A stretch of 21,487 nt of DNA. Origin: a virus. The notes under the pieces are model-generated. The model worked only from the letters and a program-made list of their open reading frames with translations. It searched no databases and was not told where the DNA came from. The position numbers and the translations under genes are program-made. Positions 108-20,000 of the stretch are shown here, one piece after another. Where the stretch lies: positions 1-21,487 of IMG/VR virus record IMGVR_UViG_3300042922_000326. One strand, written 5' to 3'. Position 1 is the first letter of the stretch, and each line of letters opens with the position of its first letter.

Positions 108-382
108 TACACCGCCTGCCTTTCTCTTATTCTTGCTTTCCGTTCACGGTCTTTCCTTCGTATTTCCTCTATATTTGCAGCTCGATAATTCCTTTGATAA
201 TCTTTCTCTTCCTTATTGTGATTGAGATAATACCGTCTGCGAATAGCTTTTCGTCTCTCTGGATTTTTTCGTATCCATTCTGCTTTTCGCTCGTTATTAT
301 CTGCCGTCAAGGAACGTACGCACTCATCAAGTGGACATTTTAGGCATTGCTTGGTGGTTGGGTTTGTATATGGACATTTCAT
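107..382 (-). CDS. Small Cys-rich, highly basic hypothetical protein
   Basis: A 91-residue protein. Its N-terminus has four cysteines (C3, C13, C16, C21) that could bind one zinc ion. The remainder is a strongly basic, Arg/Lys/Glu-rich helix, which suggests nucleic-acid binding. The start overlaps the preceding stop (ATGA) and its own stop overlaps the methyltransferase start, so translation is probably coupled. It contains one copy of the dispersed octamer (303-310), read here as Leu-Thr-Ala. I do not recognise a named family; it may be a small phage HNH-like or zinc-finger accessory protein, but no catalytic residues are evident. Confidence 0.75.
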
Positions 383-675
383 TTAGTAACCCTCGCTTTC
401 GGATTAAGGATAAATCTCACCCGATCCCATTCCTTTTGTAAGTATTCCGGTACAACGATTGTTGCCTCTGCATCTTCAAGGTTCTTTGTGCCGTCAAGGT
501 AAGTGCGTGTTATAATGTATCTCTTCTCGATTTTTTGACCGTATTTAACAGCATTTATCACTCTTGTGCTGTCGGTTTTGAGTGTTTCGGTTACCCTTCC
601 CATAGGTGCGTTTTCCAGTATGTAACTATCCGTATCCACATCAAAAACATCATAAACATATAAATCCTTAGCCAT
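379..675 (-). CDS. Hypothetical phage protein, possible small DNA-binding fold
   Basis: A 98-residue protein with an N-terminal YVYDVFDVDT beta-hairpin-like stretch. The following segment (GRVTETLKTDSTRVINAVKYGQ) resembles the helix-turn-helix part of small phage proteins that carry NUMOD1-like modules, and a KRYIITRTYL strand comes next. The resemblance is general, so DNA binding is inference. It sits in the operon with the stop of the upstream interrupted gene overlapping its ATG (TAAATG) and an AGGAGGAT ribosome binding site. It carries one octamer copy (490-497), read as Leu-Asp-Gly. Confidence 0.7.
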   Translation of the reverse strand: MAKDLYVYDVFDVDTDSYILENAPMGRVTETLKTDSTRVINAVKYGQKIEKRYIITRTYLDGTKNLEDAEATIVVPEYLQKEWDRVRFILNPKARVTK

Positions 676-909
676 TTAACCATCCTCCTTCATCATAAAA
701 TTTGCTTCTAATATTGCTACGATTTCGACCAATATTTTCCGACATAACTCAAACGGATATTTCTTCTCAACCTCATGGGATTCCGATATCACCAAATCCC
801 AATCAGGCTCTTTGACGGCAATTCATTTGAGGTAGAAGTTATACGTATCCTTAAATATCAACCGAACTTGCTCATTGTTCGGGAATAACTCCTCATTCTT
901 ATCATCCAT
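676..909 (-). pseudogene. 77-codon phage gene interrupted by an in-frame TGA
   Basis: From ATG at 909, preceded by GGAGGG at good spacing, the frame reads MDDKNEELFPNNEQVRLIFK and continues to Lys28, then TGA (825-823). It then stays open for 48 more codons, through KYPFELCRKILVEIVAILE, to a TAA (678-676) that overlaps the next gene's ATG in the usual operon style. Codon use and protein character do not change across the TGA, which suggests a TGG-to-TGA nonsense change in one ancestral gene of about 77 residues. No in-frame ATG or ribosome binding site follows the stop closely, so a second separate gene is unlikely. TGA is the normal stop of several other genes here, so recoding is not supported. 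One octamer copy (812-819) lies just past the TGA. Confidence 0.65.
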
Positions 910-924
910 AATTACCCTCCACTT

Positions 925-2877
925 TTAATTGAATGGCATTTCACTCTGGTCGTATTGCTCCAAATCAACAAATCCATCAGCATTTGTTGGTAAATCGTGG
1001 ACATTCTCATCGCCCTCAATATCATCCGACATCTTCAGAAAAATACACCACTTAGGAGAATCCCCGTTAATCCGCTTTTGTTTCTGATTGCCTCGTTGCT
1101 TTTGGAGTAGTTCGTTTTTGTCTGCCCAGCTTAAGAAGGTTTTCGAGGAACATCCAGTTTTCTTAATTATGTTGTCGAAAATGTTTTTGTATATAATCAC
1201 ATACCCATTTTCAATCAGCCCCCAAATATCTCCACGATACTGCCCTCTTTCATCTGGAACGAATTTTGAACGGTTTATCATAACCTCATTGAGGATAAAG
1301 TTATAACCTCTCTCATTCTCATTAACATCACCTTTGTTCTTCAACAGGTCAACGCAAAATTCAAAATCCAAATATTGCTTATCTTCAAAAATGTAATCTG
1401 TTGCAAGATAATCTGCCGTCAAAAGGATGCTCATTGGGAGAATTTGTTTTTCCTCTTTTTCGCAACCTTTTTCTTTGGCTTTTTTAACAATGGCTGCATA
1501 GGCTTTTTTCTGGATTTCTTTAATTTTATCTATTCCCACCTGTTCGATAACATCGATGAACTTTCGCCCTGCAAATCCATAATTATGAGAAATGGTTTCT
1601 ACTACTGCATTTCCATTTTCAAATATGTATCCGTCAGCACAAGGCACATCAATTATTCTATTGACGGCACCGCCCTGCATGGTTTCGGTGACTAGCGAGT
1701 GTTCGTAATTGGTAATAATGATATTTTTCCAATTGGTGGACTTGTTCAGTCCAAGCGTAGTATTAGCTCTATCCTTACCTTTACCAGAACACAACATATA
1801 AACCAAATCTGTAAAATCCCCATCATATTTCTTCTTAACTTGCGACATGTCATCGATAAACATCGGGAGGCTGTTCAAAACATCAAGTCTTAATTCCAAT
1901 GCGGTAGCTGTTGATTTTGCATCGGTCATGTAGACATTCTCAGCTGGGTTAGCCCATATACTGGTTGCAAGCATACATGATACCGTTTTTCCTTTTCCCG
2001 TAGTCTCATATAGGTTCATGATAAATGGTAAAGCATTCAGCGGTTCAATTAACACACTTGCAAGGCTCGCAATCATAGTAATCTTTGGTTCAAACCTATC
2101 GGATTCCCTGACTGATTTTACAAGCTCCATCCATTTTGTTTCACTGCCAACCTCATTAATACTTTCATAGACATCTTTAAACTTCTGTTCACCGTCAAAG
2201 ACAAGAGTTTTGCAATATGGGATAAATCCATCATCAACCCATCCGAGTTTGCCGGTAGAGGTCTGTGTATCAATGGTATCTATGTTGTAGTTAAGAATAT
2301 CCGTGAGATATTTCATAAGTGCTTTGGCATTGTTACTGTTTACATCAACGCTAAAATCTACAAGGGAAATGATTTTGTTGACATCTGCGATTGTTCGCTT
2401 ATCAATAATGATTTCTTTCCAGCGGTTTAAATCCTTATAAGCAAGCTTTACTTTCTCTTTGCCTGTTTCGATGCTGATTAGCCGTTGAACCGGAAAAATA
2501 GGATGATGGCATATCGTCAACTCAACTCCGTTATTATCGATTATTCTCACACCGTCTGAGTCGCATATCCATCCACCGCAATACATCTCGTCATACTTGG
2601 AAGAGTTAAACTCAGTCATGCGATTAAAAGACGGATATTCCGGTAGCTGTTTCGATTCCTTTTGCTTTTTCTCAGTGGATTTTTTAAAGGCCTTTAGCAA
2701 TGTATCAAACTTCTTTTTCACCCTTAATTCATCCGCTTTTTCCGTCAAGGCAATTACAAGCTTAGCTTTTTCAAATTCATCTTCTTGGTCAAAGATTTCC
2801 TGAAAGATTTCATCATGAAGAATAGTTTTTTCTGTCAATTTATCTATCTCAATCAAATGTTTTTCACCTCGTTTCAT
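925..2877 (-). CDS. DUF927/Cch-like replicative helicase-type ATPase
   Basis: A 650-residue protein with a P-loop ATPase domain. Walker A is ETTGKGKTV (about 291-299), Walker B is SLPMFIDDM (about 337-344), and a sensor-like IIITNYE lies near 386-392. The N-terminal 80 residues are charged and helical. The middle (about 90-260) resembles the domain preceding the ATPase in DUF927 proteins, which include Cch helicases of SCCmec elements and phage helicases that work with a primase. The gene directly downstream of a CHC2 primase fragment fits a helicase-primase role at an origin. The last residues are acidic and end EMPFN, closely like the DELPFN tail of the SSB in this operon. Octamer copies lie at 1415 and 1661. 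Start chosen at the ATG with GAGGG upstream. Confidence 0.8.
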   Translation of the reverse strand: MKRGEKHLIEIDKLTEKTILHDEIFQEIFDQEDEFEKAKLVIALTEKADELRVKKKFDTLLKAFKKSTEKKQKESKQLPEYPSFNRMTEFNSSKYDEMYCGGWICDSDGVRIIDNNGVELTICHHPIFPVQRLISIETGKEKVKLAYKDLNRWKEIIIDKRTIADVNKIISLVDFSVDVNSNNAKALMKYLTDILNYNIDTIDTQTSTGKLGWVDDGFIPYCKTLVFDGEQKFKDVYESINEVGSETKWMELVKSVRESDRFEPKITMIASLASVLIEPLNALPFIMNLYETTGKGKTVSCMLATSIWANPAENVYMTDAKSTATALELRLDVLNSLPMFIDDMSQVKKKYDGDFTDLVYMLCSGKGKDRANTTLGLNKSTNWKNIIITNYEHSLVTETMQGGAVNRIIDVPCADGYIFENGNAVVETISHNYGFAGRKFIDVIEQVGIDKIKEIQKKAYAAIVKKAKEKGCEKEEKQILPMSILLTADYLATDYIFEDKQYLDFEFCVDLLKNKGDVNENERGYNFILNEVMINRSKFVPDERGQYRGDIWGLIENGYVIIYKNIFDNIIKKTGCSSKTFLSWADKNELLQKQRGNQKQKRINGDSPKWCIFLKMSDDIEGDENVHDLPTNADGFVDLEQYDQSEMPFN

Positions 2878-2887
2878 GTAAATTCCC

Positions 2888-3433
2888 TCAGTCTAATCTT
2901 TTCAACATCCCAAACAGGGATTCCCATCTGCCTATTAATTTTGGTAGTTCGTTTTGTACATATATCCATACTTCTCCGAATGGTTCTGCCGTCAAAGTGA
3001 TTGCTTTGTATGCTCGTATCATGCCGCCTAGTTTGGCTAATTCCGCTCTAATTTGTAACTGTTGAGTTTGTTCACGTTGCTGGTCAAAAACGGCTTTGCG
3101 GGCTCTCTGAGCGGCTTCTTCGGATACCTCTTCATTGTCTGAAATCGGAACACCGAACCTCTTTGACAGCATCAATGCAGCTTCTTTTTGAGTAACACCC
3201 TCGTATAACTCAACAAACTTTGTAACATCTCCACCGGTTCCGCAAGCCTTACAATGAAATCCTCGATACTCTGGAAACACCTTAAGGCTTGGTGTCCGTT
3301 CTGAACCTCCGCCATGAAACGGACACCTTATAAAATCGCTACCGCCTTTTCTTACGATCCGAAAACTGTAATACTCGGCTACCTGACGCATTGTTATTGA
3401 GTTGCGGAGGATGTAGAAATCATCTTTGGTCAT
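2888..3433 (-). CDS. CHC2 zinc-finger primase N-terminal domain protein
   Basis: A 181-residue protein whose first 100 residues match the zinc-binding domain of DnaG-type primases. CPFH supplies C37 and H40, and FHCKAC supplies C61 and C64, forming a CHC2 finger that recognises single-stranded template for primer synthesis. The RTPSLKVF strand between the pairs is typical. The protein ends after a helical tail with no TOPRIM catalytic core, so it cannot make primers alone. It lies immediately upstream of the DUF927-like ATPase, suggesting the two act together or recruit a host primase. The start overlaps the preceding gene's stop (ATGA). One octamer copy lies at 2988-2995. Confidence 0.85.
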   Translation of the reverse strand: MTKDDFYILRNSITMRQVAEYYSFRIVRKGGSDFIRCPFHGGGSERTPSLKVFPEYRGFHCKACGTGGDVTKFVELYEGVTQKEAALMLSKRFGVPISDNEEVSEEAAQRARKAVFDQQREQTQQLQIRAELAKLGGMIRAYKAITLTAEPFGEVWIYVQNELPKLIGRWESLFGMLKRLD

Positions 3434-4090: not shown

Positions 4091-4767
4091 TGCGCATCAC
4101 CACCTAGCAGCTCGATAATTTTCATCCCTGCGGATTTTTTATCTGTGAATACCCACTCGACTCCGTACTTCTCACTCATTGTTACCATAGCCTTATATAA
4201 CTCTTCTCCGGTTGTAGGACCGCGGACAATTTTTGCACCATGCTTCTTAAGTTCAGCAACCTCAGTCTGAAAATCTGCATCCTTTGGAATATTCCATTCC
4301 TTCCGGATTTTCTTTTCATAGAGGAACTGGCGAGGATTAATCCATTCCTTGACGGCATCAAGCGAATTGATTTTTCCACCGTTTTCAACTAGGATGAATA
4401 ACTTGATTCCATTATTGTGAGCCAATATAACTTCATCCCTGAACCTTCCATGAGTTCGGCTACATACATTGCTTATAACCTCTTGTAAATCCTTCTTTGA
4501 ATCAACCGTTACCTTGTATGTACCAAGAAAATCAAGCTTTTTCGGCTCCGTTCCGATTTTTTTTATATACTCTTCGGTTTCCTTATCCTTATTAATCATG
4601 ACCCTGGAAGATTTGCGGTCAAGAACATCAAGTATCTTCTCGTTAATTACGACATAATCACCGACCGGAAGAGGAAGTTCAACCAATTCATGGCCCTTTT
4701 GCCTTAACCAATTATGTTTGGTTTCGTGTTTACCGGCTTGTTGCCCTTTGTCAACGGCGATACGCAT
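4087..4767 (-). CDS. ERCC4-domain nuclease
   Basis: A 226-residue protein starting MRIAVDKGQQ. It has the ERCC4/XPF-type nuclease layout: an N-terminal strand with an acidic residue (AVD), a LPLPVGDYVV strand, a VTVDSKKDLQE motif that resembles the VDxKxxLxE active-site segment of phage ERCC4 proteins, and RFRDEVILAHNNGIKLFILVE as the following helix and strand. Between VGDY and VDSK lies an unusually long insert of about 40 residues that itself contains a DRKS motif. The family cuts branched or flapped DNA. The start at 4767 overlaps the upstream stop (TAATG) and is preceded by AAGGAGG; a longer reading frame upstream is less likely. One octamer copy lies at 4349. Confidence 0.82.
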   Translation of the reverse strand: MRIAVDKGQQAGKHETKHNWLRQKGHELVELPLPVGDYVVINEKILDVLDRKSSRVMINKDKETEEYIKKIGTEPKKLDFLGTYKVTVDSKKDLQEVISNVCSRTHGRFRDEVILAHNNGIKLFILVENGGKINSLDAVKEWINPRQFLYEKKIRKEWNIPKDADFQTEVAELKKHGAKIVRGPTTGEELYKAMVTMSEKYGVEWVFTDKKSAGMKIIELLGGDAQ

Positions 4768-5033
4768 TAGGCATCCTCCTTGTCCGCTTTCTCGCCACAA
4801 AACGGGCAATACTTAGCAATCATCTTGACGGCGGTTGTTTTCTTCCTTCCGATTGGCTCATGGGTTATCGTGAATGGGATAAACAATGTAGGGTTCACTG
4901 ATTTTTTCCCAAATATCCATCCGGATAAATCACAACCGGCATCTATAATATTGAGCTTTGCATATTCGGGATTTTTCTTTGAAAATTCACCTTCCCGAAT
5001 ATCATTACAAATTCTTTTTACACAGTCACACAT
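4767..5033 (-). CDS. Zinc-ribbon hypothetical protein
   Basis: An 88-residue protein taken from ATG 5033, preceded by GGAGGAAAAACCAA. It begins MCDCVKRICNDIREGEFSKK and ends with a YCPFCGEKA knuckle. Cysteines at both ends (C2, C4, C9 and the CPFC pair) could form a zinc site. The start lies inside the last codons of the upstream gene and the stop overlaps the ERCC4 start. Function unknown. It contains one octamer copy (4825), read as Ala-Val-Lys. Confidence 0.72.
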   Translation of the reverse strand: MCDCVKRICNDIREGEFSKKNPEYAKLNIIDAGCDLSGWIFGKKSVNPTLFIPFTITHEPIGRKKTTAVKMIAKYCPFCGEKADKEDA

Positions 5034-5421
5034 TTGGTTTTTCCTCCTTCTTCCTCGGCTTATACACCCTCTCACTCGCTAAATATTCCTCGGTTTTTCT
5101 CTGCTTACCTAATAGCTGCCGTAGCTTATTGAGGGTGGATTTATGATTTAATTCCTCAAAAAACTTAACGATTTCCTCTAGCTCGTCCACGGTATCTTTA
5201 TTACGTCTACGTTCAATCCGGCTGTTATGTAACTTGGTGGCGATACGGCTACGCTCCTTTTTATCCTTGGCAAATTCCATATCGTGAACCAGGTCAAGCA
5301 GCTCCTTCTTATCAGCTTCGTTGACGGCTTGGAGAGCGTTTTGGTAATTGGATTTACACTCATCTATGTAGTTAAGGAAAGATGAGATTATCTCGGATGG
5401 GTGTTGTTTGGGTTGTTTCAT
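5026..5421 (-). CDS. Basic helical hypothetical protein
   Basis: A 131-residue protein taken from ATG 5421 because AAGGTGG lies upstream at workable spacing, inside the end of the HNH-like gene. Longer in-frame starts lie within that gene. The sequence is almost wholly helical and highly charged, with heptad-like stretches (DELEEIVKFFEELNHK) and a very basic C-terminus (YKPRKKEEKP). A DNA- or protein-binding accessory role in the replication operon is plausible but unproven. One octamer copy at 5321, read as Ala-Val-Asn. Confidence 0.7.
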   Translation of the reverse strand: MKQPKQHPSEIISSFLNYIDECKSNYQNALQAVNEADKKELLDLVHDMEFAKDKKERSRIATKLHNSRIERRRNKDTVDELEEIVKFFEELNHKSTLNKLRQLLGKQRKTEEYLASERVYKPRKKEEKPNV

Positions 5422-5425
5422 ATTG

Positions 5426-5884
5426 CTATACCACCTTCCCATATTGGTTTGCTCCGACATATGGCTCTGTAGTGAGGGTTTTTTCAGTGCTCCATCCATT
5501 ATTCAACCTCGCCCAAATAGTCGCCAACTTTATTCCGGTAATCTCCGACCATTCACCCAAAGTATGACTGACTCCATCGAACTCCACATATCTGTTATTG
5601 GAACGATTGTTTTGTTGAACCTTTTCAGTAACCCATCTGCAATTATCTGGTTCATAGTTTCCATTGGTATCTTTGCGGTCAATAGTTAGGTTATCAACAT
5701 AACCATTCAGCACTGACCATAAATAGAAGCTTTCAAACTTATTCCATTCATCACAGACTGAAATTCCTCTACCGCCATAATTAGCAAATCTGTTATTGTT
5801 GGGATTACTACACCTTGACTTCATTGACCGCCATATATCGTATAATCTTGTATGTCTTTGACCATGTTTATAATTTCCTGACAA
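5426..5884 (-). CDS. HNH-type homing-like endonuclease
   Basis: A 152-residue protein from a TTG start at 5884 with AGGGGTGA upstream. It contains the signature of a widespread phage endonuclease-like family: RLYDIWRSMKSRCSNP, then YGGRGISVCDEW, then LTIDRKDTNGNYEPDNCRW. The conserved His/Asp/Asn residues around DNLTIDR and NGNYEPDNCRW are HNH-like. The C-terminal third (VEFDGVSHTLGEWSEITGI) resembles a NUMOD1-like DNA-binding helix-turn-helix. Such genes spread by cutting related genomes that lack them. It sits between SSB and a basic protein, and unlike most neighbours of its size it has no exact octamer, consistent with later arrival. Confidence 0.78.
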   Translation of the reverse strand: MSGNYKHGQRHTRLYDIWRSMKSRCSNPNNNRFANYGGRGISVCDEWNKFESFYLWSVLNGYVDNLTIDRKDTNGNYEPDNCRWVTEKVQQNNRSNNRYVEFDGVSHTLGEWSEITGIKLATIWARLNNGWSTEKTLTTEPYVGANQYGKVV

Positions 5885-5897
5885 TAAAATCACCCCT

Positions 5898-6329
5898 TTA
5901 ATTAAATGGAAGTTCATCACAGGCACCTGAAGGTATGTTCATAAATCCGTCACCCACCGCACTACTCGGCTCCGGTCTACTTGAACCACCCTCAACGCTA
6001 CCTTCACGCTTGCTCTCTGCAAATTCAACTTGCTCCACTGCGATATCAGTCGTGTAAACCTTAACCCCGTCCTTATTCGTATATGAGCCTGTTTGGATGT
6101 GACCTTCGACAACCATTTTCATACCCTTAGTGAAATATTTCTCAACGAACTCGGCTGTCTTTGAAAATGCTATACAGCTGATAAAATCTGCTTCTTGTGT
6201 GTCACCGGCTCTTTTAAATTTGCGATCTACTGCAAGGGTGAATCTCGCTACTGCTGTTGAGTTTTCTGACTGACTATATTTAACTTCCGGATCTCTTGTG
6301 AGTCTCCCGATTAAAATAGCTTTATTCAT
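5898..6329 (-). CDS. ssb: Single-stranded DNA-binding protein
   Basis: A 143-residue protein starting MNKAILIGRLTRDPEVKY, the standard opening of bacterial and phage SSB. The OB fold spans about 1-105, with FTLAVDR, FISCIAFSKTAEFVEKY and the VVEGHIQTGSY strand. A Ser/Gly/Glu-rich linker follows, and the tail ends CDELPFN, a version of the acidic DDDIPF tip that recruits replication and repair proteins, with one extra Asn at the end. ATG 6329 is chosen because GGAGGACAA lies upstream; it overlaps the end of the upstream gene by 8 bases. It coats single strands during phage replication and RecT-mediated annealing. Confidence 0.95.
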   Translation of the reverse strand: MNKAILIGRLTRDPEVKYSQSENSTAVARFTLAVDRKFKRAGDTQEADFISCIAFSKTAEFVEKYFTKGMKMVVEGHIQTGSYTNKDGVKVYTTDIAVEQVEFAESKREGSVEGGSSRPEPSSAVGDGFMNIPSGACDELPFN

Positions 6330-6565: not shown

Positions 6566-7312
6566 CTACCATGGGAATAGATCTAATTTAATAGTTATAC
6601 CTTTATCAGCCACAACCACTTTGACGGCATCCCCAACAATCTCTTGGATTGTCTGTTGAAATTCCATTGAATTTGAATTGCCATCCGACAAATGGAGAAG
6701 CACAATACTGTCAAGGGAAGCAGTCTTGTTGGCTCTCACGAACTCCCTACAAGTCTCAATGCTCATGTGAGTCTTGAATGTACGATTTACTCTCGCCTGG
6801 TCTATCAACCCCTTTGACAGCAGTTCTTCTACGATTGCTTCGGAGTAGTTGGCTTCGATGGCTATATGATTGAGTTTTAATTTGTTGAAGTTAGATTTAA
6901 CAAATGCGGAGTCCGTGCAGAATAGCAGCTTACCCATATCAGGATGAACAATCACATATCCGAAGCACTCGACATCGTGTTCTGCGTGGAAGGGATAAAT
7001 TTTGAATTGTCCGATACAGTATTCATATCCACATCTAACAACCTTCTGTGCATCGTACTCCTTTGACAGCGATTTATGGGTTTCCTCGGATGCATAAACA
7101 GGGATACCGGATTTCAGATATTCCATGGCATATCCAAAGTGATCTGAATGCATATGGGTCGCAACTACTCCGATTATCTTACCCACATTGAAATCCAGTG
7201 CTTTTTTAACTTCCGCAAATTTGATTCCGCATTCTAAGACTAAGCACTCCGTATCGCTTTCCAGAAGGTAGCAGTTTCCAGAGCTACTACTACCTAGACA
7301 TTGCATTTTCAC
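6566..7312 (-). CDS. Metallo-beta-lactamase-fold hydrolase
   Basis: A 248-residue protein with the MBL metal-binding motif THMHSDH (about 52-58, HxHxDH), a second His pair in FHAEHD (about 109-113), an Asp in the FCTDSA strand (about 134) and LLHLSD (about 205-210). The opening CLGSSSSGNCYLLES is characteristic of the YycJ/WalJ-like branch common in Firmicute phages, where it is presumed to be a nuclease or phosphodiesterase. The frame starts with GTG 7312 overlapping the upstream stop (TAGTG); ATG 7306 is an alternative. It lies between RecT and SSB, so a DNA-processing role is likely. One octamer (6621) and two TTGACAGC variants (6814, 7063). Confidence 0.88.
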   Translation of the reverse strand: MKMQCLGSSSSGNCYLLESDTECLVLECGIKFAEVKKALDFNVGKIIGVVATHMHSDHFGYAMEYLKSGIPVYASEETHKSLSKEYDAQKVVRCGYEYCIGQFKIYPFHAEHDVECFGYVIVHPDMGKLLFCTDSAFVKSNFNKLKLNHIAIEANYSEAIVEELLSKGLIDQARVNRTFKTHMSIETCREFVRANKTASLDSIVLLHLSDGNSNSMEFQQTIQEIVGDAVKVVVADKGITIKLDLFPW

Positions 7313-7548
7313 TATGCATCACCCAATTTCTTAATCTCGTTAAACTGCTCCGTATTCGCCAAGAGCAAACCACCCGTGTAATAATTGCCGTCAATGAGAA
7401 GCTTCGTAATGACCTCATTTGGAACTGCGATTGTAACTCTGCCAAATCCATCTTTGCCGGATTGAGCTGCTGTGATATTGGATAATGGAGCAAGTAGGAT
7501 TTCTTTATTATCAGCCGACATTTTCGCCAATACTTCAAAATTGCCCAT
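7312..7548 (-). CDS. 78-residue hypothetical protein
   Basis: A small protein beginning MGNFEVLAKMSADNKEILLA, with beta-rich stretches (GFGRVTIAVP, GNYYTGGLLLA). A TAGGGGGTAG ribosome binding site lies just after the RecT stop, and its own stop overlaps the MBL start. Conserved position between RecT and the MBL hydrolase suggests a recombination accessory, but no family is recognised. One octamer copy (7387), read as Ile-Asp-Gly. Confidence 0.68.
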   Translation of the reverse strand: MGNFEVLAKMSADNKEILLAPLSNITAAQSGKDGFGRVTIAVPNEVITKLLIDGNYYTGGLLLANTEQFNEIKKLGDA

Positions 7549-7559: not shown

Positions 7560-8582
7560 CTACTCAAATACCGACTGATTAATTTCATCGATAATAGTTG
7601 TTTTCTTGGATTTAGGTTGTTCCTTGGGTGTCTCAGGTTCCGGATCCGGCATTACAAATTCCTCTGTGTTAGCCTGTTCCTCAATCATTGCCTGCGTTTC
7701 CATCTGAACATATCTTGTCTCAGCTTCTCGCATGTACTGATAGCTCTCATCAATCTTCATTGGGTCTATCTCAATATGCTTCGGACTGTACACATACCGG
7801 ATCAGAGTTTTCATGCACATTTCTTCGTACCAACCTTCGGTTTCAACGTCCTGTTTCTTTCCATTTACATATTCGGACTTTGTTCCTCCCCAGAAATCGG
7901 CTGCTGCGTACTTGGGTTTTCTCTTCTCGATATCCTTTAAAGTCATGATAATAAGGCGGTTTTTCTTTGAGTCGTCATATTGAAGGTATCCAAATCCTCC
8001 GATTACCGTTCCGCGATTAAAAGGATTGGTAATCTCAAACTCATAACTCTCAACCTCATTGACGGCACTCTTTTTGACAGGCTTAAATATATCCGTGGAA
8101 TAAACCAGTTCAGTAATAACATTCTTGGGTTTATTCAATGCATACTTCTCAGCTATGTACTGGATGCCTGAATACCCCTTGATGAACGTTACATCATACT
8201 GATTGGTTTTCTTATTCTTAAAGGGCATTGCTGTCAAGTGGTTCGGCTGCATCATATCCAATCCCATTTTTGCGTAGTGTACCGCATCGAGGATACATTC
8301 TTTGAGGTTAACAGTGTTCCAGTTAATAGCTAAATCATTGTTGTATTGCTTATTGGTGTTTGCCTCGTTCTTACGAATACGGTTTTCCTCTGCAATCTTT
8401 AAGGCCCTATCTATCCCGATAAAATAACCCTGCATGAGTTGAGTCTGATAAGTAGATAAGTGAGATTCTCCACCAACCTGTGAAGCAAATTCCTTTATTG
8501 CATATGTAGAAAACTGCGCCCCAGGTGTTAGCTCGGTCTGCTGTGGCTGTTGTGTTGCTACAGCGTTTTTTTCTACTGACAT
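7560..8582 (-). CDS. recT: RecT-family single-strand annealing protein
   Basis: A 340-residue protein with RecT family landmarks: ILDAVHYAKMGLDM, then FIKGYSGIQYIAEKYAL, then GGFGYLQYDD leading into LIIMTLKDIEKRKP, and EEMCMKTLIRYVYSP near the end of the core. The family binds single-stranded DNA and anneals complementary strands. Residues after about 285 are a variable acidic and proline-rich tail (MPDPEPETPKEQPKSKK) that likely contacts partners such as SSB. No canonical RecE exonuclease is present; the SbcC-like ATPase, ERCC4 or MBL proteins could supply processing activity, which is inference. Octamer at 8059, variant at 8230. Confidence 0.93.
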   Translation of the reverse strand: MSVEKNAVATQQPQQTELTPGAQFSTYAIKEFASQVGGESHLSTYQTQLMQGYFIGIDRALKIAEENRIRKNEANTNKQYNNDLAINWNTVNLKECILDAVHYAKMGLDMMQPNHLTAMPFKNKKTNQYDVTFIKGYSGIQYIAEKYALNKPKNVITELVYSTDIFKPVKKSAVNEVESYEFEITNPFNRGTVIGGFGYLQYDDSKKNRLIIMTLKDIEKRKPKYAAADFWGGTKSEYVNGKKQDVETEGWYEEMCMKTLIRYVYSPKHIEIDPMKIDESYQYMREAETRYVQMETQAMIEEQANTEEFVMPDPEPETPKEQPKSKKTTIIDEINQSVFE

Positions 8583-8583: not shown

Positions 8584-8793
8584 TTACTTTCCTCCTAATT
8601 TTCTGATAATCACATCGAGTTCCAATTCCAAATCCTTGGTGAATGTGTTGTGAATATCCCTATAACCATACTCACCAGCACTCCACCAACAATGTACGTA
8701 CCATGTTCCTTTTGCTTCATCGTTGCGGACAAGAATAATTCCCTTGCCGTCAAGCAGATCAGCGATTGTGTTGAGTTTATTTAATCCTTCCAT
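8584..8793 (-). CDS. 69-residue hypothetical protein
   Basis: A small acidic protein beginning MEGLNKLNTIADLLDGKGII and containing a WYVHCWWSAGEYGYRDIH aromatic stretch. A TAGGAGGGATTTAG ribosome binding site precedes the ATG and the stop lies one base before the RecT start. No family recognised. One octamer copy (8746), read as Leu-Asp-Gly. Confidence 0.68.
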   Translation of the reverse strand: MEGLNKLNTIADLLDGKGIILVRNDEAKGTWYVHCWWSAGEYGYRDIHNTFTKDLELELDVIIRKLGGK

Positions 8794-11389: not shown

Positions 11390-11652
11390 TCTGTCTTGCC
11401 CCTCTCTTTCATCAATTTCTCAATTGCCTGTTTCGCTTCTGCCAGCCGTTCCTCTGCATCTTCCCAATCAAGATAGATGGTGAAGGAAAATTCCATATCC
11501 GGCTTTTCATCGGGTGGGAGAATATCCCACCCATCCTTATATGCATGTACCATTACACTGTCGCAATGTGGCGCATAATCAAACCAGATACATATCCCTC
11601 GTTCCTTTGCCGTCAAGCAGAGACTTAGCAAATTAACAACCCTCTCATTCAT
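11386..11652 (-). CDS. 88-residue hypothetical protein
   Basis: A small protein beginning MNERVVNLLSLCLTAKERGI, with a DYAPHCDSVMVHAYKDGWD segment, an FTIYLDWEDAEE strand-helix and a charged helical C-terminus. The stop overlaps the SbcC-like start. It resembles hypothetical proteins of phage early operons but I cannot name a family. One octamer (11609), read as Leu-Thr-Ala. Confidence 0.7.
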   Translation of the reverse strand: MNERVVNLLSLCLTAKERGICIWFDYAPHCDSVMVHAYKDGWDILPPDEKPDMEFSFTIYLDWEDAEERLAEAKQAIEKLMKERGKTE

Positions 11653-11656: not shown

Positions 11657-13768
11657 TTAGTTCCTCACTTTCTCGATGCCTGTATCACCCATAACAAACA
11701 CATTTTGACCAATAAGCACTACGTATTTCTTTTCAGCCATTGCAATTATTACCCCTATATCGCCATTGTTGGGTTGAAAGAAGTATTCATTGTTGTAAAG
11801 CTTTGTAAAGTCTTTGGCGTGCTTTTCAACAAACGCAATACTTCCGCTGTAGTTATTACCTTTATCAACCACCTTGACGGTATCACCGATATTGATTGTG
11901 GTATCTTTTCCAAACGGAACATTTTGCCATCTGCGAACCTCTTCGATTACCGATTGAGGAATTGGTTGGAACTTTTTAACCTCCGGCGCTTCTTCGATGA
12001 TGATGTATTCTTGGTACTTATCTTCGAACCAATTACGTCCTGTACTTCTCGGATTGTTTGCGCCAACAGAAAATCTATTGACTTCATCAACAACCATTAC
12101 ATCATCTTTCTTAACCTCCGGACCGTGTCCTATACCACCTTTAACCACCTTAATCTTATCCCCAACCTTCGCCTTAACGAACGGCGCGTTCTTGGGGAAT
12201 ACAGAGTAGTCGAAGTTTTCTAGGACAACGTATTCACGGGCAATGATATGATAAGGTTTCATTACTACTCCATTTTTGAAGTATTCATCATGCAATTTCT
12301 CAACCTTGATAATGTCCCCGTTATCATATCCGTAATGATAGGTTGAATCTGCATTGACAACCTTGATAATTTCTCCTACCCTTGCTTCTCTCTTAACCTC
12401 TCTCATGGAAGTGGAGGAAACTGGCTGTTCCGGTTCTGGCTTGCTGTCAATGGGTGGCTGATAGTTTTCGAGGACTACATACTCTTTGGGCAATAAAAAC
12501 TTGCCGCATTTATTCTCGTAATAAGCCCAATGCTCATTAAAACAGTTATGGTTATCAACCTTGACAATCCTTGCTATATCTCCGTTTTTTAGATATCTTT
12601 TCGTGCTTATAGATGCATCCACAATCTTAATCCATTCCCCGACTTCTGCCTTGCGAGACACTTCTTTGACAGTGGGTTTTGATGGGGTGTAGTCGATGAT
12701 AGGTACATCGTTTATATTTCCGCCGTAAGTCAATCCATGAAATTCTGGACGATGTATGTAGCATGTTGCTCCGTGATTACTTTCAGATGCCCTATCACCA
12801 GTACACCACTTAATCCCTTGCTCATCACATTCCTTCAAAAACTCCCTAGCCTTTTCCTCGGTATCGCAATGTACCGCGAATTTTCCTGATTTGAAGGATT
12901 CCCAATCGAAGGAGGGTGTTTCGGTTTCCTTATATGGCTCGATTTCATCCTCATCCACGAACCAATGAATGCTGCAACCGTATTTTTTGCCATTAACAGC
13001 AACCGCTTTCCACTTTGGATAATGACCGTCTTCGATAAGTTCAAGGATCTCTCCTATCGGGAAACAATGACCGTGTTTCTTTGCAATAACCTTAACCTTG
13101 TCCCTAGCCTTGAAACCCTCTGCCGTCAAAGGAGTATTCTCTTCGGTATTCTTGACTTCTTCCCAATCCGTTCCGAACCCTTCGCCAAACCACTTAGCCA
13201 AATCAGCGAAACAGTCAAAGCGATCAATACCATTGTCTTTGAATTGTGGCATTTTCTCGCCATTATCCCATTTGCCGAAGCCATTCACGAATTCATATAC
13301 CTTGCCCTCAGTAAGTCCTCCGTCGTCAGTCTTGATACACTTAGCTTTAAAACCATTAGGCTTGTCCACTGCTTCAATTTCCTTAACATTGAATGTATCC
13401 AATAGCTTTTCCACCGCTGCTTTAGCTGCCTTACCGAAATCACCACCAAAGTCATTCAGTTTTACATTAGTTGACTTCTGATACTCTCCATCCACCGACA
13501 TAACCGCAACGACACGCTTGTCTTTCTTGCAACGCTTGATTGATATGTATTCACCGAAGTATTGCTTTTCGGTAACGAGTTCCCATTTGGCAGAGCTCCA
13601 ATTGTTCCAATCCTCAAATGTATTAATTGTTGTACGAGAGTCCGGCATTTTAGAACCATCATCACAAACCATAAATCCATTCACAAAGTCATATACCTTG
13701 CCATTTGTGTACACGTCTGAGTTGTCACAATCATCTAAACATTTAACCTTAAAATTACCCTTACTCAT
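11657..13768 (-). CDS. 703-residue protein of repeated SH3/KOW-like modules
   Basis: The largest protein here, taken from ATG 13768 (AAGAGGATT upstream; longer frames run into the preceding gene). Two N-terminal modules resemble each other: FKVKCLDD then GKVYDFVNGF, and FKAKCIKTDDGG then GKVYEFVNGFG. At least five later modules share the pattern [AV]xxGDx[IV]KVV, a [ND]GD[IV] or [KN]DD turn, and a YVVLEN-type strand, typical of SH3-like or KOW beta-barrels. A segment near the first module (VVAVMSVDGEYQKSTNV) is a different fold. No catalytic motif, signal peptide or membrane segment is visible. It may be a scaffold that binds protein or nucleic acid. Octamer at 13122; variants at 11874 and 12443. 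Confidence 0.75.
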   Translation of the reverse strand: MSKGNFKVKCLDDCDNSDVYTNGKVYDFVNGFMVCDDGSKMPDSRTTINTFEDWNNWSSAKWELVTEKQYFGEYISIKRCKKDKRVVAVMSVDGEYQKSTNVKLNDFGGDFGKAAKAAVEKLLDTFNVKEIEAVDKPNGFKAKCIKTDDGGLTEGKVYEFVNGFGKWDNGEKMPQFKDNGIDRFDCFADLAKWFGEGFGTDWEEVKNTEENTPLTAEGFKARDKVKVIAKKHGHCFPIGEILELIEDGHYPKWKAVAVNGKKYGCSIHWFVDEDEIEPYKETETPSFDWESFKSGKFAVHCDTEEKAREFLKECDEQGIKWCTGDRASESNHGATCYIHRPEFHGLTYGGNINDVPIIDYTPSKPTVKEVSRKAEVGEWIKIVDASISTKRYLKNGDIARIVKVDNHNCFNEHWAYYENKCGKFLLPKEYVVLENYQPPIDSKPEPEQPVSSTSMREVKREARVGEIIKVVNADSTYHYGYDNGDIIKVEKLHDEYFKNGVVMKPYHIIAREYVVLENFDYSVFPKNAPFVKAKVGDKIKVVKGGIGHGPEVKKDDVMVVDEVNRFSVGANNPRSTGRNWFEDKYQEYIIIEEAPEVKKFQPIPQSVIEEVRRWQNVPFGKDTTINIGDTVKVVDKGNNYSGSIAFVEKHAKDFTKLYNNEYFFQPNNGDIGVIIAMAEKKYVVLIGQNVFVMGDTGIEKVRN

Positions 13769-13775
13769 AATCCTC

Positions 13776-14280: not shown

Positions 14281-14391
14281 TTAATATCTTGGACAGCATG
14301 TCGTTCCTCTTAATCTACAGCTAGAACATTTACACATCGCTCTTGACTTTGACGGCATGTAATTTCCAGCACTAAACCATCTTTTTTTCAT
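14281..14391 (-). CDS. 36-residue Cys-rich peptide
   Basis: A short gene starting MKKRWFSAGNYMPSKSRAMC and ending CCPRY, with five cysteines (20, 22, 25, 32, 33) in its basic C-terminal half; four could bind a zinc ion. An AAGGAGGGAGATTAACCAG ribosome binding site precedes the ATG, and the stop lies next to the ribosome binding site of the following gene. It contains one octamer (14349), read in the rare frame that gives Pro-Ser-Lys. Confidence 0.62.
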   Translation of the reverse strand: MKKRWFSAGNYMPSKSRAMCKCSSCRLRGTTCCPRY

Positions 14392-14395: not shown

Positions 14396-14914
14396 TTAAT
14401 CTCCCTCCTTAATTTTGTGAAGCTTGTCCATAATTCTTCTGCTATATCTACTTGAATAAATTCCCTGTTGCCATAACTCCCTTGTCCGAAATTCTCCCAT
14501 GTTGTAACTCATTAAAACTCGATGCAGGCTATCATACTTAGCCGTCAATAAAGATAAGATATAGACACCAGCCTTGATGTTCTGGCTTGGCTCATAGAAA
14601 TCCGTAATGCCGAGTTCTTCACTCAACCATTCGTGATTACAAGAATTGATCTGCATTAATCCGTGATCGGTTGTACCGTTTCGGTTAATGTTAAATGCTT
14701 TAATTTCACCCTCTGACTCTCCATCGATAACAGCCCAAACCAAATCGCCGTCAATGTGATAAATTGCTGAGTAGTAGGCTACGGCTTTCACAATGGGCTT
14801 GTCCTTGACGGCATCAAGCGTGACTGCCATACCAGCAACCGGTTCTTCGAATGCGAATACTTTCTTTGACGGCAATAGAAGCAAAATCACCGCCACAAAT
14901 AATATTTTCTTCAT
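14396..14914 (-). CDS. Secreted lytic transglycosylase (SLT domain)
   Basis: A 172-residue protein with a signal peptide (MKKILFVAVILLLLPSKKVF, likely cleaved after VFA near 21). The mature part has the Slt fold: VWAVIDGESEGEIKAFN with catalytic Glu66, then GTTDHGLMQIN (about 80-90), NIKAGVYILSLL and the late MSYNMG motif. Enzymes of this family cut the glycan strand of peptidoglycan, forming anhydro-muramic acid. In mobile elements they act as VirB1-like enzymes that open the wall for DNA passage, or aid phage entry or lysis. Unusually it is the first gene after the XRE regulator. It holds four octamers in about 330 bases (14541, 14747, 14805, 14866), the densest cluster in the window. Confidence 0.9.
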   Translation of the reverse strand: MKKILFVAVILLLLPSKKVFAFEEPVAGMAVTLDAVKDKPIVKAVAYYSAIYHIDGDLVWAVIDGESEGEIKAFNINRNGTTDHGLMQINSCNHEWLSEELGITDFYEPSQNIKAGVYILSLLTAKYDSLHRVLMSYNMGEFRTRELWQQGIYSSRYSRRIMDKLHKIKEGD

Positions 14915-15822: not shown

Positions 15823-16074
15823 TTAAATTGTCATCTTGCAACACATATCTTTTACCACGGATCGCATCAGCTCGATTATGTACCTACATGACTCAGTATC
15901 ACCGCTTTCACATGCCGTCAACAGGTCTGCTTCATATTTTTGATACTCACATAATCCATCTTCTACGCTCCCATTAATGAAATCCTCAGTTTCATCTTCT
16001 GAAGTCTTATCTGGCAATGGATTAGCGTTCGTGATCGCATCATCACGTATACGTTTTATATATATAGTCTTCAT
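15823..16074 (-). CDS. 83-residue acidic hypothetical protein
   Basis: A lone minus-strand gene between two plus-strand regulators. It starts MKTIYIKRIRDDAITNANPL at ATG 16074, chosen because GAAGGGGG lies just upstream (an in-frame TTG at 16095 is possible). The middle is acidic (SEDETEDFINGSVEDG) and the C-terminal half has four cysteines. Its isolation beside the repressor genes suggests a lysogenic or accessory gene with its own promoter. No family recognised. One octamer (15914), read as Leu-Thr-Ala. Confidence 0.6.
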   Translation of the reverse strand: MKTIYIKRIRDDAITNANPLPDKTSEDETEDFINGSVEDGLCEYQKYEADLLTACESGDTESCRYIIELMRSVVKDMCCKMTI

Positions 16075-16128
16075 GTAAACCCCCTTCGGTTGCAACTATA
16101 CATTAGTTCTCAGCAGTCATTTTATCTT

Positions 16129-16738: not shown

Positions 16739-16993
16739 AATTTATGGTGTATTGTGATATATGATAGAAATATCGAAAATTTTCGTTAATGTACCAACTA
16801 TACATATATGGAACAAGGTGTTATCATAAAGTCATCCCAAAATAAGAATTGTCTACAGAGAGGACTCCACAGAAATGTGGGGTTTTCTTTTTTTTGCATT
16901 AAAATCTATTAGAAATTATTAAAAACTATGCAACATTTGGTATCCTCTCTCATATAGTGTATTAGAAACTAACAAAAACTAATAGGAGGCAAT
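16739..16993. promoter_or_regulatory. Candidate parC-like centromere/operator region
   Basis: The gap before the actin gene holds a 12-bp palindrome CGAAAATTTTCG (16774-16785) and two 22-bp direct repeats with 19 matches (16907-16928 and 16960-16981), each beginning TATTAGAAA and ending AAAAACTA. In ParMRC-type systems the RHH partner binds direct repeats upstream of parM, so these are centromere candidates. A -10-like TATAGT lies at 16953-16958. Only two repeats are seen, fewer than in well-studied parC sites. Confidence 0.4.
16864..16895 (+). terminator. Rho-independent terminator
   Basis: An 8-bp stem ACTCCACA/TGTGGGGT (one G-T pair) with a GAAA loop is followed by a run of T broken by one C. 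It would end transcripts of the XRE gene at 16445-16738 and insulate the actin gene. Confidence 0.75.
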
Positions 16994-17887
16994 ATGATAA
17001 AGGGGTTGGATAACGGTTATCTCTACACCAAAGATAATGAAAAGCGGATTTTTAAATCAGCCTACCGCCGGGTCGATAACACGCTATCAGACATCACTAT
17101 TGACGGCATAGATTTTGGGGTTGGTTCTGGGAATCCGACAATTGAAGTAGATAAAACAGATCAGGAGATCAACAAGGTATGTACGTTATATAATTTGAAA
17201 TTGACTGGCCCTGGAGAATATTATCTAGTTGCTGGGTTGCCAATCGGTCAGTATAAGTTACAACGAGAAAAATTTACTAAAATGATCATGGGATACAATG
17301 ATTGCAAGGTATCAGTACATGAACAAGATTTCAAATTTCACATTAATGATGTGTTAATCTTCCCACAAGGAGCCGGAGCATTAATGTCCATCGGTCAGCT
17401 AAATGGGGACTATATTGTGTTTGATATTGGTGGGTTAACAATCGACATCGGGTTAATTGAAATGATAAATGGATCCCCGGTGATGCAGAAATACGACACT
17501 TGGTATAAAGGGATCCAAAAACTTTACAGCCAAATCATTCATGCAACCAATAACCGATATAACATGACTCTTGAACCAAGATACGCCGAGAAAATATTTG
17601 TCAATGGATTGACGATTGAGGGCGAAAGGCAAGATTTAGCGTTCCTTCAACCAGTACTGCAAGCATACCTCGAACCTATACTCACCGAATTTCAATTAAA
17701 CTACCCATCCAAAACCACCCAGATTGTATTATGTGGTGGTGGTGCATCAGTATTATATGGTGTTTTTAAATTCCGTTTCAAATCGGTCATTCTTTTGCCG
17801 GACAGTCAATTTGCTAATGCAATGGGTTATTACAAAATAGGCTGTCGCAAGTTTGATAAATACATAAGCAAGGGGGTGAGATTATAG
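16994..17887 (+). CDS. ParM/Alp-like actin-family partition ATPase
   Basis: A 297-residue protein with the actin-family nucleotide motifs. Phosphate-1 is GLDNGYLYTK (about 4-13), phosphate-2 is FDIGGLTIDIG (about 143-153), and the adenosine motif is VLCGGGASVLYG (about 245-256), followed by the connect-like ANAMGYYKIG. Length and motifs match plasmid-segregation actins of the ParM/StbA group, which polymerise to push plasmid copies apart. AGGAGG lies four bases before the ATG. The gene is followed directly by an RHH protein, as in parM-parR operons, which supports an extrachromosomal lifestyle. One octamer (17100), read as Ile-Asp-Gly. Confidence 0.85.
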   Translation: MIKGLDNGYLYTKDNEKRIFKSAYRRVDNTLSDITIDGIDFGVGSGNPTIEVDKTDQEINKVCTLYNLKLTGPGEYYLVAGLPIGQYKLQREKFTKMIMGYNDCKVSVHEQDFKFHINDVLIFPQGAGALMSIGQLNGDYIVFDIGGLTIDIGLIEMINGSPVMQKYDTWYKGIQKLYSQIIHATNNRYNMTLEPRYAEKIFVNGLTIEGERQDLAFLQPVLQAYLEPILTEFQLNYPSKTTQIVLCGGGASVLYGVFKFRFKSVILLPDSQFANAMGYYKIGCRKFDKYISKGVRL

Positions 17888-18096
17888 GCCAGACAATTCC
17901 GGTATACTTCGGTGATGATGAATTGGAATTACTACATAGGATAGACAGTAACAAAGGACACATGTCACGGAGTGCGTGGTTTAAAGAAGCCGCCGAAGCA
18001 TATCTAGGAAACGAAAGAAAAACCGCCGTCAAGGTTGAGTGTGATTACGGACTAAGTTCAACCGGCATCGATAATTTTCTTGACAGCATGAATTAA
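17884..18096 (+). CDS. Ribbon-helix-helix protein, ParR-like, with non-canonical start
   Basis: A 70-residue CopG/Arc-type protein. The strand TIPVYFGDDE, helix LELLHRIDSNKG and second helix SRSAWFKEAAEAYLG form the RHH dimer fold. The reading frame is closed by a stop at 17857 and has no ATG, GTG or TTG before the strand. The best start is ATA 17884, seven bases after a near-perfect AGGGGGTGA ribosome binding site; ATT 17881 is an alternative. The gene overlaps the actin stop. As partner of a ParM-like protein it would bind the centromere and link it to filaments. Octamer at 18025, variant TTGACAGC at 18080. Confidence 0.72.
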   Translation: MGQTIPVYFGDDELELLHRIDSNKGHMSRSAWFKEAAEAYLGNERKTAVKVECDYGLSSTGIDNFLDSMN

Positions 18097-18148
18097 AATA
18101 ACCCCGGCGCTACTTTGGACGGTGAACGCACAGGGTTAAATATAAGGG

Positions 18149-18163
18149 GCCTAAATAATAGGC
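18149..18163. promoter_or_regulatory. Small inverted repeat before the translocase gene
   Basis: GCCTA (18149-18153) and TAGGC (18159-18163) flank AATAA in the 96-bp gap between the RHH and FtsK-like genes. A weak promoter may precede it (TTGGAC 18115-18120, TAAATA 18137-18142). It could be an operator or a leader hairpin ahead of the AGGAGG. Confidence 0.3.
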
Positions 18164-18192
18164 TACCTCTATTATATCATAGGAGGTTAATA

Positions 18193-19455
18193 ATGAAAGA
18201 AAAACTTGATTATAAAAATATGCAACTTTATACGTGTGCCTTGTCGGTTATTCTCGGAATAGGATTGAAGGCATTTGATAGATTTTTACCAGGTTCATTC
18301 GATGGATACGCTGCTATCTTCAGCACTGTTGGAATAAGTGGAATTACTTATCATTATTGCACCAAGAGTAAATATGACCGGATATTTCGCAATCTAAAGT
18401 TAGGAATTAATGAATGCTACTATCCTATCATGCGAACAAAGGAGAAAAGCGAATATTCTACTACCTATAAATTTACTCTTCCAGCTGGAATCTCCGTGGA
18501 TGATATTATAAAGAAGCAATCAGCCATCGAACAACATATTGGGAAACCAGTTCATATCGAGTATATCAACAAAGGACAGTTCATCATCGAAGAATATCAC
18601 AAAACCACCATTGATAAATTCAACTATGAGCCAATCCAACTTGACGGCAATGTGTCTATATTGATTGGCAAAGATCGCAAAGGTAGAATGATTAATTTTG
18701 ATCTTGCCGAAGGAACTGAACCACATTTACTTGTAGCCGGGTCCACCGGATGTGGCAAGTCAAACACACTGTTCGTTATTATCACCAATCTCATTCTCCA
18801 CTCAAATGTACTACTGCACCTCATTGATTTAAAACACGGAGCCTCATTCTCAGTGTTCAAGAAGTCTTCCCATGTAAAATCATTCGCTGACACCACAGAA
18901 ACCGCCGAGAAGGTCTTAAAATCAATTAATGATGATATAGAGGCTCGTTATCAGAAAATGGCTAGAAATGGCTTTGGCGATATTCAAAGCTATAATAAAC
19001 GGCATAAGAAAAACCCATTGACTTATGAGTTATTGGTCATAGATGAAATGGTAGATTTCGCATCCAGGAAAGATTTGCTCGAAGAGTTATCCGTTATATC
19101 CGCCAAGGCCAGAGCTTGCGGAATACATATGATTACCTCAACGCAGAGACCTGATAAAGATATTCTGAATGGTAAAATAAAATGCAATATCACCAATGTC
19201 TTAGGCATGAAAACAATAGATGCAACCAACTCCAGAATAATAATTGATACTGAAGGCCTCGAAAAACTCAACGGAAAAGGCCATGGATTGCTGTCAAGGC
19301 TAGGTGATATGACCGAGGTTCAGACACCGTATTTAAACACAGAAAAGGTCAGAGAATTAATCAAACATACCTACGTTTCTAAATCCGAACCGAAACTAAT
19401 CCCATCAGAAAAAATCGATGTAGATATCACTGATTTGGAGGTGTTCCATTCATGA
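18193..19455 (+). CDS. FtsK/TcpA-like membrane DNA translocase
   Basis: A 420-residue protein from ATG 18193 with AGGAGG at ideal spacing; an earlier in-frame start has no ribosome binding site. Two hydrophobic segments (about 12-28 and 40-56) anchor it in the membrane. The motor has Walker A GSTGCGKS (about 183-190), an LIDLKHGASF strand, Walker B LLVIDEMVDF (about 280-289) and STQRP (about 316-320), all typical of FtsK/SpoIIIE and of Firmicute conjugative coupling proteins. No C-terminal gamma winged helix for sequence recognition is visible. Its likely role is pumping the element's DNA during transfer or segregation. Octamer at 18641, variant at 19290. Confidence 0.88.
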   Translation: MKEKLDYKNMQLYTCALSVILGIGLKAFDRFLPGSFDGYAAIFSTVGISGITYHYCTKSKYDRIFRNLKLGINECYYPIMRTKEKSEYSTTYKFTLPAGISVDDIIKKQSAIEQHIGKPVHIEYINKGQFIIEEYHKTTIDKFNYEPIQLDGNVSILIGKDRKGRMINFDLAEGTEPHLLVAGSTGCGKSNTLFVIITNLILHSNVLLHLIDLKHGASFSVFKKSSHVKSFADTTETAEKVLKSINDDIEARYQKMARNGFGDIQSYNKRHKKNPLTYELLVIDEMVDFASRKDLLEELSVISAKARACGIHMITSTQRPDKDILNGKIKCNITNVLGMKTIDATNSRIIIDTEGLEKLNGKGHGLLSRLGDMTEVQTPYLNTEKVRELIKHTYVSKSEPKLIPSEKIDVDITDLEVFHS

Positions 19456-20000
19456 TGTTGACCAGACGAGATTTAGATATCCTCAACTTTATTGAAGAAT
19501 ACCGTATCGCCAGTACAACCACATTGACAGCATTGTTTTTTCCAAGTCTTCGAAGCTGCCAACTAAGGCTTAGAACCCTTGCCGTCAATGGAAAGGTCAA
19601 AAGGGCTCGGCTAACCATGAACCATGACTATATTTACTATGTGAAAAAACCCGGTAATTTCATGCATGATTTGCTAGTGACAGAATTCTACCGTGAATTA
19701 TCTCAACGCTCTAAAATCCTCAATTTCGTGTCTGAAAAAGGTTTAGGTAAAATACGTCCAGATGCAATATTTGGCTTCGAATTTGAAGGAAAACAGAGGC
19801 TTGGATTGCTTGAAGTTGAGATATCGCACAAGGGATTTGATTTTGAAAAGTACGAGGAATTTTATAGGACCGTAGCCTACAAGGAATGGTTCCCGATAAT
19901 GCCTACCGTCTATATCGTTGGTAGAAATATCAAGCCACCAAAGACCACTCAAATTAAATATGTAACTATCATAACGGATATGTCAGATTTTAGATTATAG
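19452..20000 (+). CDS. Replication-relaxation-like winged-helix protein
   Basis: A 182-residue protein beginning MMLTRRDLDILNFIEEYRIA. The first 70 residues form a winged helix (TTTLTALFFPSLRSCQLRLR then a wing ending YIYYVKK). The second half has HDLLVTEFYRELSQ, IRPDAIFGFEFEGK and LLEVEISHKGFDFEKY, the arrangement of the replication-relaxation family, whose PDA...E.E core resembles a restriction-type nuclease fold. Members accompany FtsK-like genes on Firmicute plasmids and conjugative elements. The ATG overlaps the translocase stop (ATGA), so the two are translationally coupled and probably work together. Octamer at 19581, variant at 19524. Confidence 0.78.
   Translation: MMLTRRDLDILNFIEEYRIASTTTLTALFFPSLRSCQLRLRTLAVNGKVKRARLTMNHDYIYYVKKPGNFMHDLLVTEFYRELSQRSKILNFVSEKGLGKIRPDAIFGFEFEGKQRLGLLEVEISHKGFDFEKYEEFYRTVAYKEWFPIMPTVYIVGRNIKPPKTTQIKYVTIITDMSDFRL

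Follow-up and report, generated by a model that had tools for sequence, protein, structure and literature searches.

The stretch of DNA analysed here (hereafter the window) is an entire linear IMG/VR virus record, IMGVR_UViG_3300042922_000326, of 21,487 bases. Its left arm is a phage early module encoding a DUF927/Cch helicase, a DnaG-type zinc-finger protein, an ERCC4 nuclease, SSB, RecT and an SbcC-like protein, and its right arm encodes a ParM-like actin, an FtsK/SpoIIIE-type protein and a Replic_Relax protein; two XRE regulators are also encoded. The early-module genes were closest to those of phages and prophages of Lachnospiraceae, the helicase being at most 59% identical over its length. 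This gene set resembles that of a 35-kb Paraclostridium record, with phage early genes, ParM, FtsK and Replic_Relax in one contig. Because the FtsK-Replic_Relax pair is shared with the 35-kb Paraclostridium and Bacillus carboniphilus records, which also bear phage structural genes, the window is probably about half of a clostridial phage-plasmid; the phage structural genes lie outside the contig, and no end repeat was found in the window. Such a phage-plasmid would be temperate, with a clostridial host. In this study, we focused on an asymmetric octamer, TTGACGGC, dispersed through its genes (Table 1).

We counted TTGACGGC on both strands of the window. The results showed 29 exact copies between positions 303 and 19588, 14 on the plus and 15 on the minus strand, in agreement with an earlier reading made from the letters alone (the sequence-only reading), which had put the chance expectation at about 0.4. 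Dinucleotide shuffles gave an expectation of 0.35, with a maximum of 2 copies in 100 shuffles, so that the octamer is enriched about 80-fold over chance, at a density of one per 741 bp, or one per 512 bp when variants are included. The same reading's breakdown of the encoded peptides was also reproduced: LTA at 7 sites, [LIV]DG at 8, AV[KN] at 11 (12 with site 812 in the interrupted gene) and PSK at 2. When synonymous codons were reshuffled with the proteins fixed, 1.35 ± 1.1 copies were obtained (maximum 6 in 500 trials) versus 28 in the intact genes. This control and the four differing reading contexts rule out an explanation by protein motif or codon usage, and the octamer is, as had been argued, a motif at the DNA level. 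The motif spelling was used in 11 of the 13 AV[KN], 7 of the 12 LTA and 8 of the 13 [LIV]DG tripeptides of the window, where ACG makes up 13% of Thr codons and GTC 17% of Val codons. The tripeptides themselves were in excess over shuffled proteins (LTA, 12 versus 1.5 expected; AV[KN], 13 versus 3.2).

The flanks and near-misses showed that the real motif is longer than the octamer. Position -2 was C in 18 of the 29 copies (p = 6e-7), and position +8 was A in 23 (p = 8.5e-8). Copies with one mismatch occurred at about chance frequency except at core position 6, where A was found 9 times against 0.54 expected, C 3 times against 0.38, and T once. The degenerate core TTGACNGC is thus present in 42 copies (G 29, A 9, C 3, T 1), most of the position-6 variants carry the same C at -2 and A at +8, and the motif reads CnTTGAC(G>A>C>T)GCA over 42 cores. 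The consensus is near-perfect: the 29 perfect copies outnumber the one-mismatch copies (21, of which 10 are expected by chance). It holds about 18 bits of information over the 15 modelled positions, a value that is inflated because the cores were picked by pattern. The motif-bearing sequence CCTTGACGGCA is named as a probe.

To describe the origin of the copies, we compared the sites with aligned homologues. The sequence-only reading had proposed this comparison to see whether sites persist at the same places in homologous genes; the two DUF927 sites were present in 2/129 and 0/129 homologues, and the sites in other genes in 0/95, 0/80, 0/7 and 0/6. The homologues aligned over the sites mostly without gaps, and the residues of the window often differed from those of its relatives, for example with AVK versus DV. 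in the ERCC4 nuclease and AVN versus AIN in DUF927. Therefore, the motif was created by substitutions, some of which came at the price of altered amino acids. Similarity was weak in the DnaG-type, metallo-beta-lactamase and SbcC-like regions and the alignments there are less certain, so DUF927 and ERCC4 give the firmest cases of residue replacement. Biased mutation or repair that writes the motif without any binding function, as proposed for iterated words such as HIP1 (highly iterated palindrome 1), is a very unlikely source of these copies. It would agree with the chief near-miss, TTGACAGC (9 copies), lying one transition at a CpG away; however, the near-misses look like functional variants because most share the selected flanks, and one-step repair cannot account for the multi-residue differences at the sites.

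We then considered the layout of the copies. The 29 copies were spaced more evenly than at random (coefficient of variation 0.64 versus 0.95, p = 0.009), an effect that was borderline with all 42 cores (p = 0.05). There was no switch of polarity along the window, the best one-switch polarity being 7 of 29 (p = 0.82), which upholds the earlier view that the motif is not KOPS-like (KOPS, FtsK orienting polar sequences). The leftward-transcribed arm held 12 copies on each strand, with no link to transcription. All 29 copies were genic, 28 in intact genes and one (812, reading AVK) in the interrupted gene; at 0-1 of 29, non-coding copies fell below the 3.4 expected from 11.7% non-coding DNA, although this departure from even placement was not significant (p = 0.25). 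No copy of the motif lay in the intergenic control regions flanking the XRE genes.

This layout contradicts the stoperator-like role that had been proposed among others. Sites of a phage repressor that silences transcription along a prophage would likewise be asymmetric, number in the tens and be scattered along a temperate element, here one with two XRE regulators. Yet stoperators sit in promoters or short intergenic gaps, follow the direction of transcription and lose their function on reversal (PMC9283540, PMC6550527), whereas the copies in the intact genes of the window were divided into 15 sense and 13 antisense over four peptide contexts, and intergenic or promoter placement was missing. 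Of the explanations considered, we regard this one as the least probable.

Taken as a whole, the pattern may be that of an uptake sequence, and we give a probability of roughly 0.4 to CnTTGACnGCA being a motif of the uptake-sequence type that belongs to an unsampled clostridial host. Redfield et al. listed traits common to the uptake signal sequence (USS) and the DNA uptake sequence (DUS): about one copy per kb, unbiased orientation, spacing of more than random regularity, perfect copies outnumbering those with a single mismatch, frequent location in coding sequence, and origin by substitution rather than insertion (PMC1626085). The uptake-type reading is favoured because the density, lack of orientation, regular spacing, excess of perfect over one-mismatch copies and substitution origin of the motif match this list. 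The density falls inside the one per 400-1100 bp of the Neisseria DUS (PMC7371117), and Redfield et al. contrast the strong consensus of uptake sequences with the looser one of ordinary regulatory binding sites (PMC1626085). Prophages of Pasteurellaceae are also known to accumulate uptake sequences over time (PMC6776037). Under this reading, the motif would be recognised by a component of the DNA-uptake machinery of the host that binds DNA with high specificity; motif-bearing fragments would be taken up and recombined preferentially, so that sites would build up in a resident element, with copies written in by point substitution wherever genes tolerate them. The host genome would presumably carry the motif as well. 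The wider claim, that sequence-specific DNA uptake operates in a lineage of Clostridia (Bacillota) with CnTTGACnGCA as its signal and that the phage-plasmid is saturated by this signal, is one we make more tentatively still.

An accidental positive control was met unsought in the pair scans described below. Prophage L305 (record G800, 43,327 bases) carries 11 copies of GTCGTCTGAA, 8 of GCCGTCTGAA and 23 of CGTCTGAA, all words of DUS dialects, from which its host was assigned as Neisseria-type. The DUS octamer reached a z of 17.5 in L305 versus 40 for the motif in the window. L305 thus demonstrates that the uptake sequence of a host can be dispersed through its prophage in like manner, though with weaker enrichment than in the window. 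In addition, the two Neisseria dialects GTCGTCTGAA and GCCGTCTGAA occur side by side in L305, suggesting contact with hosts of both dialects.

Several observations weigh against an uptake sequence. Uptake sequences are documented solely in Gram-negative families (PMC1626085), and known ones are over-represented in non-coding DNA, while the motif is not. An AT-rich, USS-like flank was suspected from columns +14 to +16 but was unsupported on testing, leaving the motif without a Haemophilus-like flank. A host of this type should have several phages or prophages that carry the motif; however, four close-pair scans of viral contigs (2.9 million) revealed no second dispersed carrier among the matches listed, and since each scan had an estimated 20-50% chance at best of catching an enriched contig of 20-40 kb, a few enriched contigs could be missed. 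Finally, among 1,143 distinct sampled Bacillota_A genomes, none came near one copy per 741 bp, the densest having about one per 5.5 kb. These samples were even draws from larger groups, assigned to Lachnospirales/Bacillota_A by the organisms used as centres, and about 317 of the genomes were tested by the pair pattern only, for which about 20 matches were estimated for an enriched genome and at most 1 was obtained. Thus, the host-wide sequence envisaged by the sequence-only reading was not found in the sampled Lachnospirales/Bacillota_A; its suggestion of an uptake-type role stands as to the anatomy of the motif, which fits, but the host that should carry it was not found among the sampled genomes.

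Further candidate carriers were rejected. In L013, L378, L451, L478, L376 and L409, the copies were on the same strand and mostly clustered, in seemingly repetitive coding sequences. L216 had 8 copies in 25.7 kb, yet TTGACGGC was outside its top words, and in L305, a Neisseria-type prophage led by DUS dialects, TTGACGGC was secondary. In a text search of the literature, the octamer as a whole word had no match, and its reverse complement, as a part of longer words, matched 754 papers, which among the matches listed were unrelated to uptake.

The genome counts also bear on a Chi-like or other recombination or repair signal, read by a host enzyme of the AddAB type and enriched through the protection that it gives to the element in linear form. 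Chi likewise is a short asymmetric word, and the motif's presence on both strands with variation tolerated at one position would suit such a signal. We nevertheless consider it improbable, given that none of the sampled Bacillota_A genomes showed a large excess and that the element encodes its own RecT and SbcC-like genes. Moreover, the enrichment and density known for Chi in phages are far under the 80-fold and one per 741 bp observed here.

Related elements, which the sequence-only reading had left to a count, gave a similar picture: 130 loci around related helicase genes held 50 copies versus 38 expected, and none was enriched. In complete phage-plasmids and phages with similar genes, no dispersed octamer, whatever its sequence, was comparable (best scores 4-10 versus 40 for the window). 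Because related loci, phage-plasmids, phages and sampled genomes were all unenriched, the motif looks specific to one element. This is what would be expected if it were the recognition site of a DNA-binding protein encoded by the element, one that acts on the replicon as a whole by coating, organising, moving or marking it and needs sites everywhere in any orientation. Candidates would include the FtsK-like translocase together with the Replic_Relax protein, as well as a protein from the unseen half. The FtsK/SpoIIIE family includes readers of 8-bp words, such as TraB of Streptomyces plasmids (PMC5365140, PMC4170104), and, with its selected flanks, the motif would correspond to a footprint of about 11 bp. 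On the other hand, three phage-plasmids with ParM and/or FtsK with Replic_Relax lacked a comparable dispersed octamer, the polarity of KOPS and of SpoIIIE recognition sequences (SRS) is absent, and the fold prediction for the Replic_Relax protein (predicted local distance difference test score, pLDDT, 30) gave no support. An intracellular site accrued by point mutation should also show more near-misses than perfect copies, and the reverse was seen. We judge an element-encoded reader unlikely, though it is the main alternative to the uptake-type reading.

Further features of the window were noted. In the left arm, a short gene (676-909, minus strand) is broken by an in-frame stop (...FYLK*IAVKEPDW...) directly before motif copy 812, reflecting decay or a sequencing error. 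The open reading frame (ORF) 5426-5926 (minus strand, 166 aa), with no exact motif copy, reads as a free-standing HNH/homing-type endonuclease; it had no Pfam match, and three prophage loci (L152, L151 and L160) contain ORFs with 50-52% identity to it. Inside the phage early operon, 11657-13852 (minus strand) encodes a 731-aa protein with apparently repeated modules that matches several PHROGs of unknown function. In the right arm, a strong terminator-like hairpin (16857-16890, plus strand; 15 pairs with a T tail) lies between the second XRE gene and parM, and the pair of FtsK/SpoIIIE-type and Replic_Relax genes (18115-20000) recurs in Paraclostridium, Bacillus carboniphilus and Thermoanaerobacterium plasmid records. 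The window contained no tRNA and no Rfam match, and megablast against phages and plasmids gave no match. A search for FtsK relatives in Lachnospiraceae found none at E <= 1e-40, but it had no positive control genome and is hence uninformative.

Table 1. Motif copies, variant cores and selected genes of the window (ORF, open reading frame)
Feature	Position	Strand	Remark
Motif TTGACGGC, LTA in ORF 107-382	303..310	-	
Motif, LDG in ORF 379-675	490..497	-	
Motif, AVK in interrupted gene	812..819	+	in-frame stop just upstream
Motif, LTA in DUF927/Cch helicase	1415..1422	-	
Motif, AVN in DUF927/Cch helicase	1661..1668	+	AIN in 97/129 homologues
Motif, LTA in DnaG-type zinc-finger gene	2988..2995	-	
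Motif, AVK in ERCC4 nuclease	4349..4356	+	homologues mostly DV.
Motif, AVK in ORF 4767-5075	4825..4832	+	
Motif, AVN in ORF 5026-5499	5321..5328	+	
Motif, AVK in metallo-beta-lactamase-fold hydrolase	6621..6628	+	
Motif, IDG in ORF 7312-7548	7387..7394	-	
Motif, AVN in RecT	8059..8066	+	
Motif, LDG in ORF 8584-8793	8746..8753	-	
Motif, AVK in SbcC/Rad50-like gene	10083..10090	+	
Motif, AVK in SbcC/Rad50-like gene	10497..10504	+	
Motif, IDG in SbcC/Rad50-like gene	10829..10836	-	
Motif, VDG in SbcC/Rad50-like gene	11111..11118	-	
Motif, LTA in ORF 11386-11652	11609..11616	-	
Motif, LTA in large ORF 11657-13852	13122..13129	-	
Motif, PSK in ORF 14281-14391	14349..14356	+	
Motif, LTA in SLT transglycosylase	14541..14548	-	
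Motif, IDG in SLT transglycosylase	14747..14754	-	
Motif, AVK in SLT transglycosylase	14805..14812	+	
Motif, PSK in SLT transglycosylase	14866..14873	+	
Motif, LTA in ORF 15823-16095	15914..15921	-	
Motif, IDG in ParM-like actin	17100..17107	+	
Motif, AVK in ORF 17923-18096	18025..18032	-	
Motif, LDG in FtsK/SpoIIIE-like gene	18641..18648	+	
Motif, AVN in Replic_Relax gene	19581..19588	-	
Variant core TTGACAGC	3163..3170	+	also 6814+, 7063+, 8230-, 9173-, 12443-, 18080+, 19290-, 19524+; 9 seen, 0.54 expected
Variant core TTGACCGC	4615..4622	-	also 5675-, 5824+
Variant core TTGACTGC	10122	-	
DUF927/Cch-type replication helicase	925..2877	-	nearest relatives place early genes with Lachnospiraceae phages
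ParM-like plasmid segregation actin	16994..17887	+	
FtsK/SpoIIIE-type translocase	18115..19455	+	sequence-related to FtsK and to a DNA translocase coupling protein
Replic_Relax protein	19452..20000	+	PF13814, slightly under cut-off; adjoins FtsK, as in Paraclostridium and Thermoanaerobacterium records

The classic example of a DNA word spread through genomes by biased transformation is the uptake sequence, which is described in two Gram-negative families only. If the uptake-type reading is true, the motif would be, to our knowledge, the first uptake sequence outside Neisseriaceae and Pasteurellaceae, and its occurrence in Bacillota would allow the old question of whether such words arise by uptake drive or by selection for function to be tested in cells with another type of envelope. 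Should the word instead be confined to the element, it would point to an undescribed means by which a phage-plasmid recognises its own DNA throughout. The basis is one contig, about half of an element, with function deduced solely from pattern; either way, a force that replaces conserved residues in several genes needs explanation.

Among known systems, the DUS of Neisseriaceae (GCCGTCTGAA) and the USS of Pasteurellaceae (AAGTGCGGT) resemble the motif in a density near one per kb, unbiased orientation, regular spacing, a very strong consensus, many coding copies, substitution origin and presence in resident prophages. They differ in preferring non-coding DNA, which the motif does not, and the motif's element belongs to Bacillota, a phylum without a described uptake sequence. 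The string TGCCGTC is common to the DUS and the motif, probably by coincidence, whereas the DUS core CTG is missing from the motif and GCCGTCTGAA is missing from the window. The stoperators of Cluster A mycobacteriophages are 20-30 asymmetric sites dispersed over a temperate phage, as in the window, but they are intergenic or promoter-bound and oriented with transcription, while the motif is genic and in both orientations. KOPS (read by FtsK), SRS (read by SpoIIIE) and TRS (TraB recognition sequences) are, like the motif, asymmetric 8-bp words, and the element encodes an FtsK-family protein; however, KOPS and SRS are polar, unlike the dispersed, non-polar motif. TRS are repeats at the clt locus (PMC4170104), in contrast to the dispersed motif. 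The motif shares with a further system the extreme iteration of an octamer. This is HIP1 (GCGATCGC), whose function is unclear and which is palindromic and host-wide in cyanobacteria, whereas the motif is asymmetric and comes so far from one element.

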